A stretch of 21,201 nt of DNA. Origin: a virus. Below the pieces are notes generated by a model. That model was not told the DNA's origin. It worked only from the letters and a program-made list of their open reading frames with translations, and searched no databases. The DNA is taken from positions 1-21,201 of IMG/VR virus record IMGVR_UViG_3300012920_000343; one strand, written 5' to 3'. Positions within the stretch are counted from its first letter, which is position 1; each line of letters begins with the position of its first letter. The position numbers and the translations under genes were made by a program. Below are positions 11,734 to 15,742 of this stretch, one piece after another.

Positions 11734-12147
11734 ATGAAACAAAGACCTAAATGTTGTGTACCCGGTTGTGGTCGAGATGCCCAATTAGTTACAAGTCTTG
11801 CAAAATTCAAGTTTCGTAAATCGACATGGGCTGCCGAAGAGTTTGGTATTCCTAGTGCCGAAGCCTTTGTATGTACTAAACATCATTCGATCAACTATGG
11901 TTTGGGTGGTTGGCATTACAAAATCTTTCGTAAAGAATATTGCGAGAATGTCGATGGTCGCTTAGGTTTTCGGTGTACAACTACAATTGTTGATCCTGAG
12001 TGGCAATTAGATGCTGATCACATTGATGGTAATCCTTCAAACAACACCGCTGAAAACATTCAGACACTATGTAAGTGCTGTCATGCTATCAAGACTCGTG
12101 ATGAAAAAGATTACATGACTGCTGGCAGAAAAACTCTTGGTTGCTAA
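11734..12147 (+). CDS. HNH endonuclease
   Basis: The 137-aa product has an N-terminal zinc-binding cluster (C7, C8, C12, later C47 and H50) and a C-terminal HNH nuclease core. The core reads DADHIDGNPSNNTAENIQTLCKCCHAIKT, residues 93-121, with His96 as general base, Asn104, His117 as metal ligand, and extra cysteines at 113, 115 and 116. This is the layout of free-standing phage HNH proteins, which either act as homing nucleases or cut host or competitor DNA. No DNA-binding repeat of the NUMOD kind is seen. It has its own promoter and a leader sharing GTGATTCGCA with the next two genes, so it is either part of that regulon or moved in with a copy of its control region. Confidence 0.85.
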   Translation: MKQRPKCCVPGCGRDAQLVTSLAKFKFRKSTWAAEEFGIPSAEAFVCTKHHSINYGLGGWHYKIFRKEYCENVDGRLGFRCTTTIVDPEWQLDADHIDGNPSNNTAENIQTLCKCCHAIKTRDEKDYMTAGRKTLGC

Positions 12148-12154
12148 TTATGGG

Positions 12155-12183
12155 TTGACAACATCCGTCATTCCTGATAGAAT
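12155..12183 (+). promoter_or_regulatory. Sigma70-type promoter of the zincin-VWA gene
   Basis: TTGACA (12155-12160), a 17-base spacer, then TAGAAT (12178-12183). The spacer ends in TTCCTG, which resembles the ATCCTG at the same place in the promoter at 14474. Confidence 0.8.
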
Positions 12184-12185
12184 CA

Positions 12186-12212
12186 AAAAGTAATGAGAGA
12201 GGTGATTCGCAA
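12186..12212 (+). repeat. Shared leader element, copy 2
   Basis: These 27 bases match 14505-14531 at 26 positions (12201 G versus 14520 A) and sit at the same distance from the -10 box. The element contains AAGTAATGAGAGA and GTGATTCGCA. GAGAGAGG in it can serve as ribosome site about 10 bases before the ATG at 12213. Confidence 0.8.
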
Positions 12213-14468
12213 ATGGTAAATATCCAGTCTAAAGAAGTTCTCGCCCGTCTGTTGGCTCAAGAGAACTTGACAGTAGTTCACCAGAATGTTCAGACCGCAT
12301 CGTTCAATCTGAAAGACCGTGTTCTGACACTGCCCATGTGGAATGACATGGAGAACTACACATATGATCACCTTGTCGGTCATGAAGTTGCTCATGCTCT
12401 CTATACGCCTGAAGAGAAGTGGCTCGAGGCTGTAAAGTCTGAGGGCGATGGCTTTCATGGCTTTCTTAATGTTGTAGAAGATGCTCGGATCGAAAAACTG
12501 ATCCAGCGTCGTTACCCTGGTCTCCGTAAACAGTTTATCAAGTCGTACAAGAAGCTTCTTGCTGATGGCTTCTTTGGAAAAAGCGAAGATGAGATAAATA
12601 GTTTCAAGCTGATCGACCGTTTGAATGTCTACTTCAAGTGTGGTCTCACCACTGGTGTGCAGTTTGACAAAGATGAGAAAGCTTGGATCAAAGAGATCGA
12701 AGACGCCGAGACTTTCGAAGAAGTTCTTGATATCGCCAAGCGGTTGTTCGGTAAAGCAATCGAAGAACACAACGAAGAGCAAGAAGCCATGGCTAAAGCT
12801 ATGGATGAGATGCTTGTCGAAGAGGGCGAAGATGAACTGGACGGCGAATACGGAGACGGAGATTTTCAAGAGTTCGAAACTGACTTTGAGGCAGAAGATG
12901 GCTTTGAAGCATCGGGTGGAGACGAAGAAGCAGATTCGAAAGAAGATGATCATTCGCAAGTAGAAAACTCGGATGCCGCTGGTGACGAAGCCAGCGACGA
13001 GGTAGACCCATCTCAGAGCAAAAAATTCGGCCACGAGGGTGGCGAAGGTGGCCCAGAATCTGTCACCGAAAAGGCTCTTTCTGAAAATATTGCAAAAGAG
13101 TTTGGTGGCGATCCTAACGTCAAGTTTCGTAACCTTCATCTCAATCTTACACCCAAGATTACTCTTGATCGTGTTGTCGGTCACAAAGAAATTCTTTCGT
13201 GCTTTGAAGGCAATCAAGTTGCCCTAGAAGCTGGTGAACATTACATGAAACAGTTCATGGTCAACAACAAGAAGACCATCAACTATCTTGTAAAAGAATT
13301 TGAGATGAAGAAGAAAGCCGCAGAATACAAGCGGGCTTCTGTCTCAAAGACTGGTGTGATCGATACTCTCAAAATGAACAACTACATGTTCCAAGATGAC
13401 ATTTTCAAAAAGATGACAGTCATCCCTGAGGGCAAGAACCACGGTCTGCAAATGTTCATTGACTGGTCTGGTTCGATGTCCGACCAACTGCATCACACTG
13501 TCGATCAGTTGATCAACCTGGTTATGTTCTGTAAGCAAGTAAACATTCCTTTCGAGGTTTACGCCTTTACTGATCGGTGGGATGTCAGTAGTGTTCGCAA
13601 CCTAGAATTCCAAGAACAGAAAGTTTTCTCTAAGCACGAACTGGCTTATCAACCAGACTTCCGTCTTATGGAACTGTTCACCAACAAAATGTCTCGCTCA
13701 GACTTCACCATGATGACCAAAGCTATCATGGCTGTGGCTAATTACTGGCAGACTCGCTGGGCGTCCCATCGCCCTGGTTGGTCTGGCCCAAGCTACTACA
13801 GCATCCCGAATGAGATGTGGCTTGGTGGTACTCCTCTTGATGAGTCGATTGTAGCCTCGATGGTCATGCATGACATTTTCAAGAAGAAGAACCGTCTCGA
13901 CATTGTAAACATGGTGTTTCTGACTGATGGTTCTAGTAACATAATCAGGTACCTCGATGAATCAGATTGGAAGGCTGATCAGACTGTCGCTGTTCCTCTC
14001 AAGATTTCAAGGTATTTCACCAACAAGAAAAACTACACTGAGTCAATCATCTATGTCAATGACCCGATGACCAAGAAGCGGTATCGTGTTCAGCCTGGTG
14101 AAGAGCCGACCAATCTTCTCCTGAAGATGTTGCGTGATCACACCCAGGCAAATCTGATCGGCTTTCATATTCTGCCAGCCCGCAAGCCTCAAGCCCTTGC
14201 TGAGTTGCCAGTTGCATACACCGAATACCAGTTGAAAGACAAGCTTTGGGATGAGTTGAGGTCAGACAAGTTCTGTGTCATTCCTGAAACTGGTTATGAT
14301 CTCCACTTTGGTCTTCTCGGTGGCAAACATCTGGCTACCTCGAATGGTGCTATTGAAGTTGAAGAGGGTGTATCGAAGACGAAGCTTCGGACTGCCTTCA
14401 AGAAAGCCAACTCTAGTCGTAAGACTAGTCGGGTGATGCTTTCAAAATTCATCGACATGGTCGCATAA
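12213..14468 (+). CDS. Zincin-like metallopeptidase / VWA-domain protein (CobT-like)
   Basis: This is a 751-aa multidomain protein. Near the N-terminus, GHEVAHALYT (56-65) carries the zinc motif HEVAH (57-61). NVVEDARIE (86-94) follows about 27 residues later and supplies the third glutamate, the gluzincin arrangement. Residues about 200-275 form an extremely acidic linker. The C-terminal half has a von Willebrand A domain: MIDAS motif FIDWSGSMSD with D417-x-S419-x-S421, then FTD and FLTDGSSNI as later MIDAS or strand elements. CobT, NorD and ViaA combine a VWA domain with a long acidic region and work with a MoxR-family AAA+ ATPase, exactly what the next gene encodes. The fused peptidase motif is not part of classical CobT. 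It has its own promoter and shares its leader with the AAA+ gene. Codons are GC-richer at third positions than in most neighbours. Confidence 0.85.
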   Translation: MVNIQSKEVLARLLAQENLTVVHQNVQTASFNLKDRVLTLPMWNDMENYTYDHLVGHEVAHALYTPEEKWLEAVKSEGDGFHGFLNVVEDARIEKLIQRRYPGLRKQFIKSYKKLLADGFFGKSEDEINSFKLIDRLNVYFKCGLTTGVQFDKDEKAWIKEIEDAETFEEVLDIAKRLFGKAIEEHNEEQEAMAKAMDEMLVEEGEDELDGEYGDGDFQEFETDFEAEDGFEASGGDEEADSKEDDHSQVENSDAAGDEASDEVDPSQSKKFGHEGGEGGPESVTEKALSENIAKEFGGDPNVKFRNLHLNLTPKITLDRVVGHKEILSCFEGNQVALEAGEHYMKQFMVNNKKTINYLVKEFEMKKKAAEYKRASVSKTGVIDTLKMNNYMFQDDIFKKMTVIPEGKNHGLQMFIDWSGSMSDQLHHTVDQLINLVMFCKQVNIPFEVYAFTDRWDVSSVRNLEFQEQKVFSKHELAYQPDFRLMELFTNKMSRSDFTMMTKAIMAVANYWQTRWASHRPGWSGPSYYSIPNEMWLGGTPLDESIVASMVMHDIFKKKNRLDIVNMVFLTDGSSNIIRYLDESDWKADQTVAVPLKISRYFTNKKNYTESIIYVNDPMTKKRYRVQPGEEPTNLLLKMLRDHTQANLIGFHILPARKPQALAELPVAYTEYQLKDKLWDELRSDKFCVIPETGYDLHFGLLGGKHLATSNGAIEVEEGVSKTKLRTAFKKANSSRKTSRVMLSKFIDMVA

Positions 14469-14473
14469 AGTAC

Positions 14474-14502
14474 TTGACAAATACCATGCATCCTGCTAGG
14501 AT
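14474..14502 (+). promoter_or_regulatory. Sigma70-type promoter of the AAA+ gene
   Basis: TTGACA (14474-14479), a 17-base spacer ending in ATCCTGC, then TAGGAT (14497-14502). It starts five bases after the VWA gene stop. Confidence 0.75.
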
Positions 14503-14504
14503 GT

Positions 14505-14531
14505 AAAAGTAATGAGAGAAGTGATTCGCAA
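14505..14531 (+). repeat. Shared leader element, copy 3
   Basis: This is the partner of 12186-12212, with a single difference in 27 bases. Here a second copy of the ribosome-site string, GAGAGAGG (14533-14540), follows, as in the HNH leader. Confidence 0.8.
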
Positions 14532-14545
14532 TGAGAGAGGTTGAT

Positions 14546-15694
14546 ATGCGAAAGTTGAACAAGAACCAAAAAGCCTTTGTTGAGGCAGCATCAAAAGAAT
14601 ATGGTGCCACTTTGACACGGGCTCAAGCCCTTGAGATTTCCAAAGCGAACGGTATGAAGCGTCCGATTTGGCTCCTCAATGATGCTCAGTATCGTGTTGG
14701 CCGTGGTGTTTACCAACTGCCAGGTGTAGCAAAAAATGCTCCGACTACTGAACCTGAGGCTCAAGCGGCTCTGATTCCAAACACTCTGGTGACAAACATG
14801 AATGTCGAGACTGAGTCGTTCACGGAGAATCTTGTCCCAGAGCAAGATCCACTTTTTGTCCCGTTTGGTAACTTCACCAAGATCAAGAAGATTATCAAGT
14901 CCAAGATGTTCTACCCTGTCTATGTTACTGGTCTGTCTGGTAACGGTAAGACATTCGGTATTGAGCAAGCTTGTGCCCAGACCAATCGTGAAGTGATCCG
15001 TATCAACTTCACAGTTGAGACTGATGAAGATGATCTCATTGGTGGTTTTCGTCTGGTCAATGGAGAAACAAAGTTCTTCAAAGGCCCTATCATTAAAGCC
15101 ATGGAGCGTGGCGCCGTTGCGCTGTTGGACGAACTTGACCTTGCAAACCCCGCAAAGGTTATGTGTCTCCAGTCCATCCTCGAAGGCAAAGGCTACTTCA
15201 TCAAGAAGACTGGTGAGTATGTCAAGCCTGCCCCTGGCTTTACCGTGATCGCTACAGCGAACACTAAAGGTAAAGGCTCTGACGATGGTCGCTTCATTGG
15301 CACCAATGTCATGAATGAAGCCTTCCTTGAGAGGTTCCCGATCACGGTTGAACAAGAGTACCCGCCAGTAGCGGTCGAGAAAAAGATGCTCGGTCTTGTC
15401 TTTGATGACCTCGGTATCGATGTCATGGACAACTTTGAAGAACTGCTGGTTGATTGGGCTGATATCATCCGTAAGACCTACTATGATGGTGGTGTTGATG
15501 AGATCATTTCGACACGGCGTCTGGTTCACATTGCCAAAGCCTACTCTATCTTTGGTGATCGTATGACTGCCATTGAGATGTGTATCAATCGGTTCGATGA
15601 AGATACCAAGCAGTCGTTCCGTGACCTCTACACTAAAGTGGATGTCGATGCTGAGATTGCAAAGGATGAAGCCGAAGAAAACGTGCCATTCTAA
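14546..15694 (+). CDS. cobS: MoxR/CobS-type AAA+ ATPase
   Basis: This gene encodes a 382-aa AAA+ ATPase. Counted from 14546, Walker A is GLSGNGKTF (129-137), Walker B LLDELD (193-198), sensor 1 ATAN (236-239) and the arginine-finger region FLERFP (260-265). DEDDLIGGF before Walker B is characteristic of the MoxR/CobS clade. The first 70 residues (with RPIWLLND and YRVGRGVYQLP) look like a small winged-helix-type domain. Cyanophage relatives are commonly annotated cobS, but no cobalamin genes are nearby. The VWA partner just upstream suggests a chaperone-like remodelling machine instead. Two starts are possible: 14531, directly after the leader repeat, and 14546, five bases after GAGAGAGG. The second aligns with the HNH gene leader and is preferred; the first adds five residues. 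Confidence 0.9.
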   Translation: MRKLNKNQKAFVEAASKEYGATLTRAQALEISKANGMKRPIWLLNDAQYRVGRGVYQLPGVAKNAPTTEPEAQAALIPNTLVTNMNVETESFTENLVPEQDPLFVPFGNFTKIKKIIKSKMFYPVYVTGLSGNGKTFGIEQACAQTNREVIRINFTVETDEDDLIGGFRLVNGETKFFKGPIIKAMERGAVALLDELDLANPAKVMCLQSILEGKGYFIKKTGEYVKPAPGFTVIATANTKGKGSDDGRFIGTNVMNEAFLERFPITVEQEYPPVAVEKKMLGLVFDDLGIDVMDNFEELLVDWADIIRKTYYDGGVDEIISTRRLVHIAKAYSIFGDRMTAIEMCINRFDEDTKQSFRDLYTKVDVDAEIAKDEAEENVPF

Positions 15695-15714: not shown

Positions 15715-15742
15715 TGAGAAAGGGCAGCACAGTCCTTTCTCA
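15715..15742 (+). terminator. Inverted repeat, possible terminator or leader hairpin
   Basis: A perfect 9-bp stem (TGAGAAAGG / CCTTTCTCA) encloses a 10-base loop. The following CTTTATTAT is T-rich but not a clean T-run, so it could end the AAA+ transcript or act as a structured leader of the 15761 gene, whose late-type promoter lies just upstream. Confidence 0.5.

Follow-up and report, generated by a model that had tools for sequence, protein, structure and literature searches.

A predicted zincin-VWA protein and a MoxR/CobS-type ATPase are linked beside replication genes in unrelated phages

A linked gene pair in a T4-like phage

The window analysed here, a 21,201-base IMG/VR fragment of a T4-like phage, carries two consecutive genes for a predicted zincin-VWA protein and a CobS/MoxR-type AAA+ ATPase. 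The major capsid protein encoded in the window is closest to those of Pelagibacter phage Mosig (67% identity) and Stenotrophomonas phage DLP_6 (66%). Both open reading frames (ORFs) of the pair, 12213-14468 (751 aa) and 14531-15694 (387 aa), are real. The first matches PHROG_459 (‘peptidase’) over the entire profile (E 3.5e-189, 1-736 of 736) and the second matches PHROG_249 (‘porphyrin biosynthesis’; E 2.5e-121, 59-368 of 380). An earlier reading made from the sequence only had described the larger protein as HEVAH, NVVED, an acidic linker and a VWA MIDAS, followed by a MoxR/CobS AAA+ gene, and every one of these features is present (Table 1).

Unrelated phages carry the two genes as a linked pair beside replication genes. 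A zincin-VWA partner is present at every one of the 70 CobS-anchored loci that extend far enough upstream, so the cobS-like genes do not occur mostly without a VWA partner, which the sequence-only reading had named as a sign against itself. In the T4-like group the recurring order is gp46, zincin-VWA, cobS, gp45, gp44. In the SSU5-like group DnaE follows 1.5 to 4.3 kb after the pair in 28/28 cluster representatives. Primase, helicase and polymerase genes adjoin the pair in phage ICP2, and a primase/helicase gene adjoins it in DLP_6.

The pair is an already known kind of system and is not new. It has been described as ‘cobST’, with cobT ‘mistakenly annotated as a peptidase’ and a role in cobalamin synthesis proposed (PMC8651126, 2021). 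A jumbo-phage pair of MoxR and a metallopeptidase-vWA protein has been described with a proposed role in virion assembly (PMC7824862, 2021). These two published readings conflict. Of the second, our data support the peptidase domain; genomic context favours a role close to replication over both published roles. The suggestion that the gene labelled cobS is half of a remodelling or protease pair is thus borne out as far as a regularly linked zincin-VWA partner is concerned, but it had been preceded by both papers. What is new here is the residue invariance, the zincin-fold match, the bridge to CobT, the replication context, the occurrence of the pair in E. coli and the Pseudomonadota that have CobT but no CobN match.

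Table 1. Coordinates of the gene pair, its predicted domains and motifs, and the flanking signals in the window
Feature	Position	Strand	Basis or remark
Sigma-70-like promoter TTGACA-17-TAGAAT, TG ahead of second hexamer	12155..12183	+	Sequence
Leader element GTGATTCGCAA, overlapping ribosome site AGGTGA	12202..12212	+	Sequence; generic in related phages
Zincin-VWA protein, 751 aa, PHROG_459 ‘peptidase’, CobT-like	12213..14468	+	ORF and profile match
Predicted N-terminal zincin domain, aa 1-203	12213..12821	+	AlphaFold2 mean predicted local distance difference test (pLDDT) score 92.4 (aa 1-205); fold matches
HEVAH (H57, E58, H61), presumed zinc-binding/catalytic motif	12381..12395	+	Sequence; invariant in 83/83
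NVVED, aa 86-90; E89 presumed third zinc ligand	12468..12482	+	Sequence; N86, E89, D90 invariant
Acidic linker, predicted disordered, aa ~205-280	12825..13052	+	Sequence; pLDDT <50 at 207-277
Predicted VWA domain, aa 405-751; MIDAS D417-x-S-x-S, T540, D572	13425..14465	+	Conservation, fold
Sigma-70-like promoter TTGACA-17-TAGGAT	14474..14502	+	Sequence
Leader element GTGATTCGCAA, second copy	14521..14531	+	Sequence
CobS/MoxR-type AAA+ ATPase, PHROG_249	14546..15694	+	382 aa from probable start; 387 aa from 14531
Walker A GLSGNGKT	14930..14953	+	Sequence
Walker B LLDELD	15122..15139	+	Sequence
Intrinsic-terminator-like hairpin 3' of the pair	15715..15742	+	Sequence

Domains of the zincin-VWA protein and the ATPase

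An alignment-based scan of viral contigs gave 80 relatives of the zincin-VWA protein, with best segments 32-48% identical, and scanning again with the window protein yielded one more locus, a partial one. Together with the window protein and two phage proteins the set holds 84 sequences. H57, E58, H61, N86, E89, D90, R92 and E94 are invariant in all 83 that cover the region. D417, S419, S421, T540 and D572 are invariant in all 84, and the MIDAS of the window protein starts with DWSGS (aa 417-421). Since the pattern used for the first scan contained HE, conservation was recounted on sets for which CobS alone or the VWA domain alone had served as the selection criterion. HExxH is found in 49/49 full-length partners at loci picked through the ATPase alone, and in one truncated partner; 20 partners at such loci have an incomplete N-terminus, and no partner is visible at 10 loci with less than 1.4 kb upstream. 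A second, distant family, picked by its VWA domain from SSU5-type phage-plasmids and their relatives, has HExxH in 28/28 cluster representatives (clustered at 70% identity). The invariance of HExxH, E89 and D90 in 83/83 relatives implies that the HExxH and NVVED motifs are not chance, and the free variation of HExxH and ExxxD residues that had been named as a counter-sign is not seen. The HExxH glutamate varies no more than the residues presumed to bind the metal, which would fit a catalytic role better than a metal site of structural function only.

The AlphaFold2 model of the full protein has a mean pLDDT of 77.7, with low confidence in the acidic linker. VWA domains crowded the results of a fold search with the whole protein; a separate model of the N-terminal domain was therefore built and searched. 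The top matches of this model (aa 1-205) are ZMPSTE24 (Z 7.1, root-mean-square deviation (rmsd) 4.0 over 133 residues), ArdC (6.5), BlaR1 (6.4) and abylysin (6.2), with jannalysin, IrrE and selecase as further matches; zinc metallopeptidases lead the list, and the first rows are all of the zincin fold. CobT (9uka) was not among the fold matches, though the library searched may lack this entry, so its absence carries no weight. Motif conservation and predicted fold together would place the N-terminal domain among the gluzincin-type zincins. The best fold matches of the VWA part are the MIDAS domain of MDN1 (Z 15.6, rmsd 3.4, 223 residues) and the VWA domain of NorD (Z 14.6), both partners of MoxR-like AAA+ proteins. 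With its DxSxS...T...D pattern and predicted VWA fold, the protein would qualify as a VWA/MIDAS partner of MoxR ATPases. Sequence comparison of the zincin-VWA protein gave no credible match in the PDB and, in a Pfam scan, a single chance match under the cut-off.

The ATPase passes the Pfam cut-offs for AAA_5 (69.9 bits, cut-off 22) and CbbQ_C (23.6, cut-off 20.6). G139, K140, D200, E201, N244, R268, R329 and R330 are invariant among four diverse members, and presumably act in Walker A, Walker B, sensor and arginine finger, roles that we assign from what is known of AAA+ proteins. On this sequence evidence the second gene encodes a MoxR/CobS-type AAA+ protein with intact ATPase motifs. ATPase matches in Staphylococcus phage Team1 and Mycobacterium phage Baudelaire were excluded, as the neighbouring ORFs that were read have neither HExxH nor MIDAS.

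The combination of a MoxR-type AAA+ protein with a MIDAS VWA protein is shared with NorQ-NorD, Midasin (MDN1/Rea1) and RavA-ViaA; we know of no intact zincin domain described in the partners of these systems. A cellular protein of similar design to the phage protein is DUF2201 (PF13203 with VWA; cyanobacterial examples L421-L426), which joins an HExxH domain to a VWA domain. Here HExxH is followed by WNxAxD, whereas the window family has NxxED. DUF2201 was rejected as the parent family, with no Pfam match at E up to 1 and a profile probability of 11 or less. The nearest known systems are those of phages. The ‘cobST’ genes of T4-like cyanophages (PHROG_459 and PHROG_249; PMC8651126, PMC3037559) have the same families, order and neighbours as the window pair. 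Against known phage proteins, the window zincin-VWA protein is ~30-37% identical and the ATPase ~50-67% over the aligned part. The jumbo-phage pair (ASV44728.2/ASV44729.1; PMC7824862), compared by description only, has the same three-part design of MoxR AAA+, VWA and N-terminal metallopeptidase.

Relation to CobT and to cobalamin synthesis

The proposal of PMC8651126 is that viral CobST and host CobN complete a cobaltochelatase and boost cobalamin. The CobS-like sequence of the ATPase is consistent with this (E 3.5e-22 against CobS in the PDB), and members of the distant family exceed the CobT_C cut-off. CobS is an AAA+ protein of the same clade, and its partner CobT comprises an N-terminal domain, an acidic linker and a VWA domain (TIGR01650/TIGR01651; PDB 9uka). 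Canonical CobT, however, has no N-terminal HExxH, and the window proteins fall far below the equivalog cut-offs: the ATPase scores 79.4 bits against TIGR01650 (cut-off 558.55) and the zincin-VWA protein 11.9 bits against TIGR01651 (cut-off 759.05).

Profiles of the N-terminal domains connect the phage proteins to CobT through an intermediate. The window family matches the SSU5-like family with probability 98 (E 3.9e-12 and 2.2e-14), with the HExxH motifs aligned, and the SSU5-like family in turn matches the N-termini of 27 canonical CobT proteins with probability 94 (E 1.8e-8). The direct match between the window family and CobT is weak (probability 27) or absent, and we therefore claim the link as bridged only. 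The Pfam CobT family (PF06213) matches the protein of phage nickie (27.3 bits, cut-off 26.1). HExxH occurs in the N-terminal region of 0/25 canonical CobT proteins; the aligned place reads DxxAL and the VEQAR helix that follows is kept. This suggests that canonical CobT is a degenerate zincin, the same domain with HExxH lost. The sequence-only reading had placed the peptidase motif outside the classical pairs. That is correct for the motif in canonical CobT, but as a general statement it is too strong, since CobT is perhaps the same domain in degenerate form and since cellular DUF2201 proteins also combine HExxH with VWA.

No CobN was found in the window or in 10 complete phage genomes with the pair, in keeping with the earlier remark that no cobalamin genes are near. 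CobN is present in one Prochlorococcus genome and in the S. elongatus control, which suits a viral contribution to cobaltochelatase; it is absent from the E. coli control genome, and the pair occurs, on plasmids only, in 219 of 5,426 complete E. coli genomes. In a survey of 397 Pseudomonadota genomes, with Caulobacter vibrioides as a control genome, CobT exceeds the cut-off in 143, of which 43 give no CobN match at 1e-10, a count to which genomes with missing sequence may contribute. In such bacteria CobST may serve a purpose other than cobalamin synthesis. A CobN survey of Bacteroidota was set aside because of many sub-cut-off matches, perhaps to other chelatases.

Vibrio cholerae, the host of ICP2, does not make the corrin ring de novo, and the presence of the pair in ICP2 is a further point against a cobaltochelatase. 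So is expression of nrdA/nrdB, a ribonucleotide reductase independent of B12. These genes are expressed by the cyanophage studied in PMC5082946. Given the E. coli plasmids, whose host has no CobN, and the 43 of 143 CobT-bearing Pseudomonadota, cobalamin cannot be the general role of the pair, and the published cobalamin function is not supported for the pair in the window. In cyanobacterial hosts alone the idea may hold, since a Prochlorococcus genome carries CobN. Overall we regard completion of a host cobaltochelatase as quite improbable.

Expression signals and a proposed machine

Each gene is preceded by a copy of a 58-nucleotide repeat (79% identical) that comprises a sigma-70-like promoter and the leader, in whose core 26 of 27 bases are the same. 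The window holds no further copies, and 100 shuffled sequences gave none. The matching promoters and leaders had been read as implying coordinated expression. The match stands, but an exact 25-mer leader search of viral contigs gave zero matches, and a shorter motif revealed that GTGATTCGCAA is generic: in related contigs (loci L199-L317) it lies shortly 3' of sigma-70-like sites of many different genes, sometimes twice or three times per contig. It looks like a general early-promoter leader and not the mark of a two-gene regulon, and since the leader is generic, its sharing is weak evidence for coordination. The ATPase gene probably starts at 14546 and not at 14531, because relative L249 has no ATG at the position equivalent to 14531 and its start aligns with 14546, for which GAGAGAGG supplies a ribosome site.

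These signals bear on the proposal of a role in assembling virions and trimming structural proteins, made for the jumbo phages in PMC7824862, which cites as precedent a MoxR-vWA system in tail assembly of Acidianus two-tailed virus. A zincin could indeed process virion proteins. However, the promoter-like sites of both genes are of sigma-70 type, and the late-type string ATAAATA, whose total count is not above chance, lies a short way upstream of the ORF at 1478 and also downstream of the pair, but upstream of neither gene. Several lineages also have replication genes and not structural genes as neighbours, so that the context of the window pair points to replication where a virion role was proposed for the jumbo phages. 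Virion assembly is on this evidence unlikely. The early-type promoter-like sites would equally suit a machine directed at a host protein, for shutdown or redirection of a host factor or for counter-defence, and so would the retention of the pair in phages and hosts that differ widely. The pair is deeply conserved and holds a fixed position in the replication module, which suits a phage-encoded or widely conserved client better than a host defence that varies, and there was no match to PADLOC, whose library covers defence and not counter-defence. We consider a host target, too, an unlikely explanation.

We propose that the pair encodes a remodelling machine of the MoxR AAA+ type that contains its own metallopeptidase and is linked to DNA replication, and judge the chances of this to be about even, with client and cleavage the inferred parts. 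The ATPase would form a ring; the VWA domain would dock on it and use its MIDAS metal to present a client protein. Hydrolysis of ATP would pull or remodel the client and the tethered zincin would cut it; in the few lineages without HExxH the zincin domain would only hold the client. The client is most likely an early-infection protein tied to DNA replication, because the pair adjoins sliding-clamp and clamp-loader genes in the T4-like group and DNA polymerase III alpha in the SSU5-like group. Cellular CobS-CobT would be a relative whose peptidase site is gone.

Several observations weigh against this proposal. (i) HExxH is lost, with the N-terminal domain kept, in phages nickie (L008, 2358-4442) and BUCTxx99 (L173, 3980-5965); these are apparently inactive versions, and cleavage would thus be dispensable in some lineages. 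(ii) The Z-scores of the zincin matches are modest (<8). (iii) In CRP-810 the stretch that was read contains no polymerase. (iv) Neighbouring genes say little about the identity of a client, and gene order may have been inherited once per phage group, leaving few independent observations.

Two neighbouring ORFs of the window are recorded here for completeness. An HNH endonuclease-like ORF (11734-12147; PHROG matches) lies immediately upstream of the pair. The ORF at 10136-11674 matches phage beta-glucosyl-HMC-alpha-glucosyltransferase (PHROG_842, E 2e-44), and the phage may have modified DNA.

A broader form of the proposal, which we hold to be doubtful, is that an AAA+ metalloprotease acts early on the replication apparatus in phages of many hosts, that CobS-CobT is its peptidase-inactivated descendant or sister, and that bacteria lacking CobN use CobT outside B12 synthesis. 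A link from zincin to CobT would also hint at where the N-terminal domain of this classical enzyme subunit came from. The question can be tested directly in a laboratory strain, as a related pair is carried by phage-plasmids of E. coli, which has no CobN. In marine viromes, phage cobS is commonly tallied among the auxiliary metabolic genes for vitamin B12. Should the pair prove to be a machine for remodelling or proteolysis, many ecological inferences on viral B12 metabolism would be built on a mistaken label.

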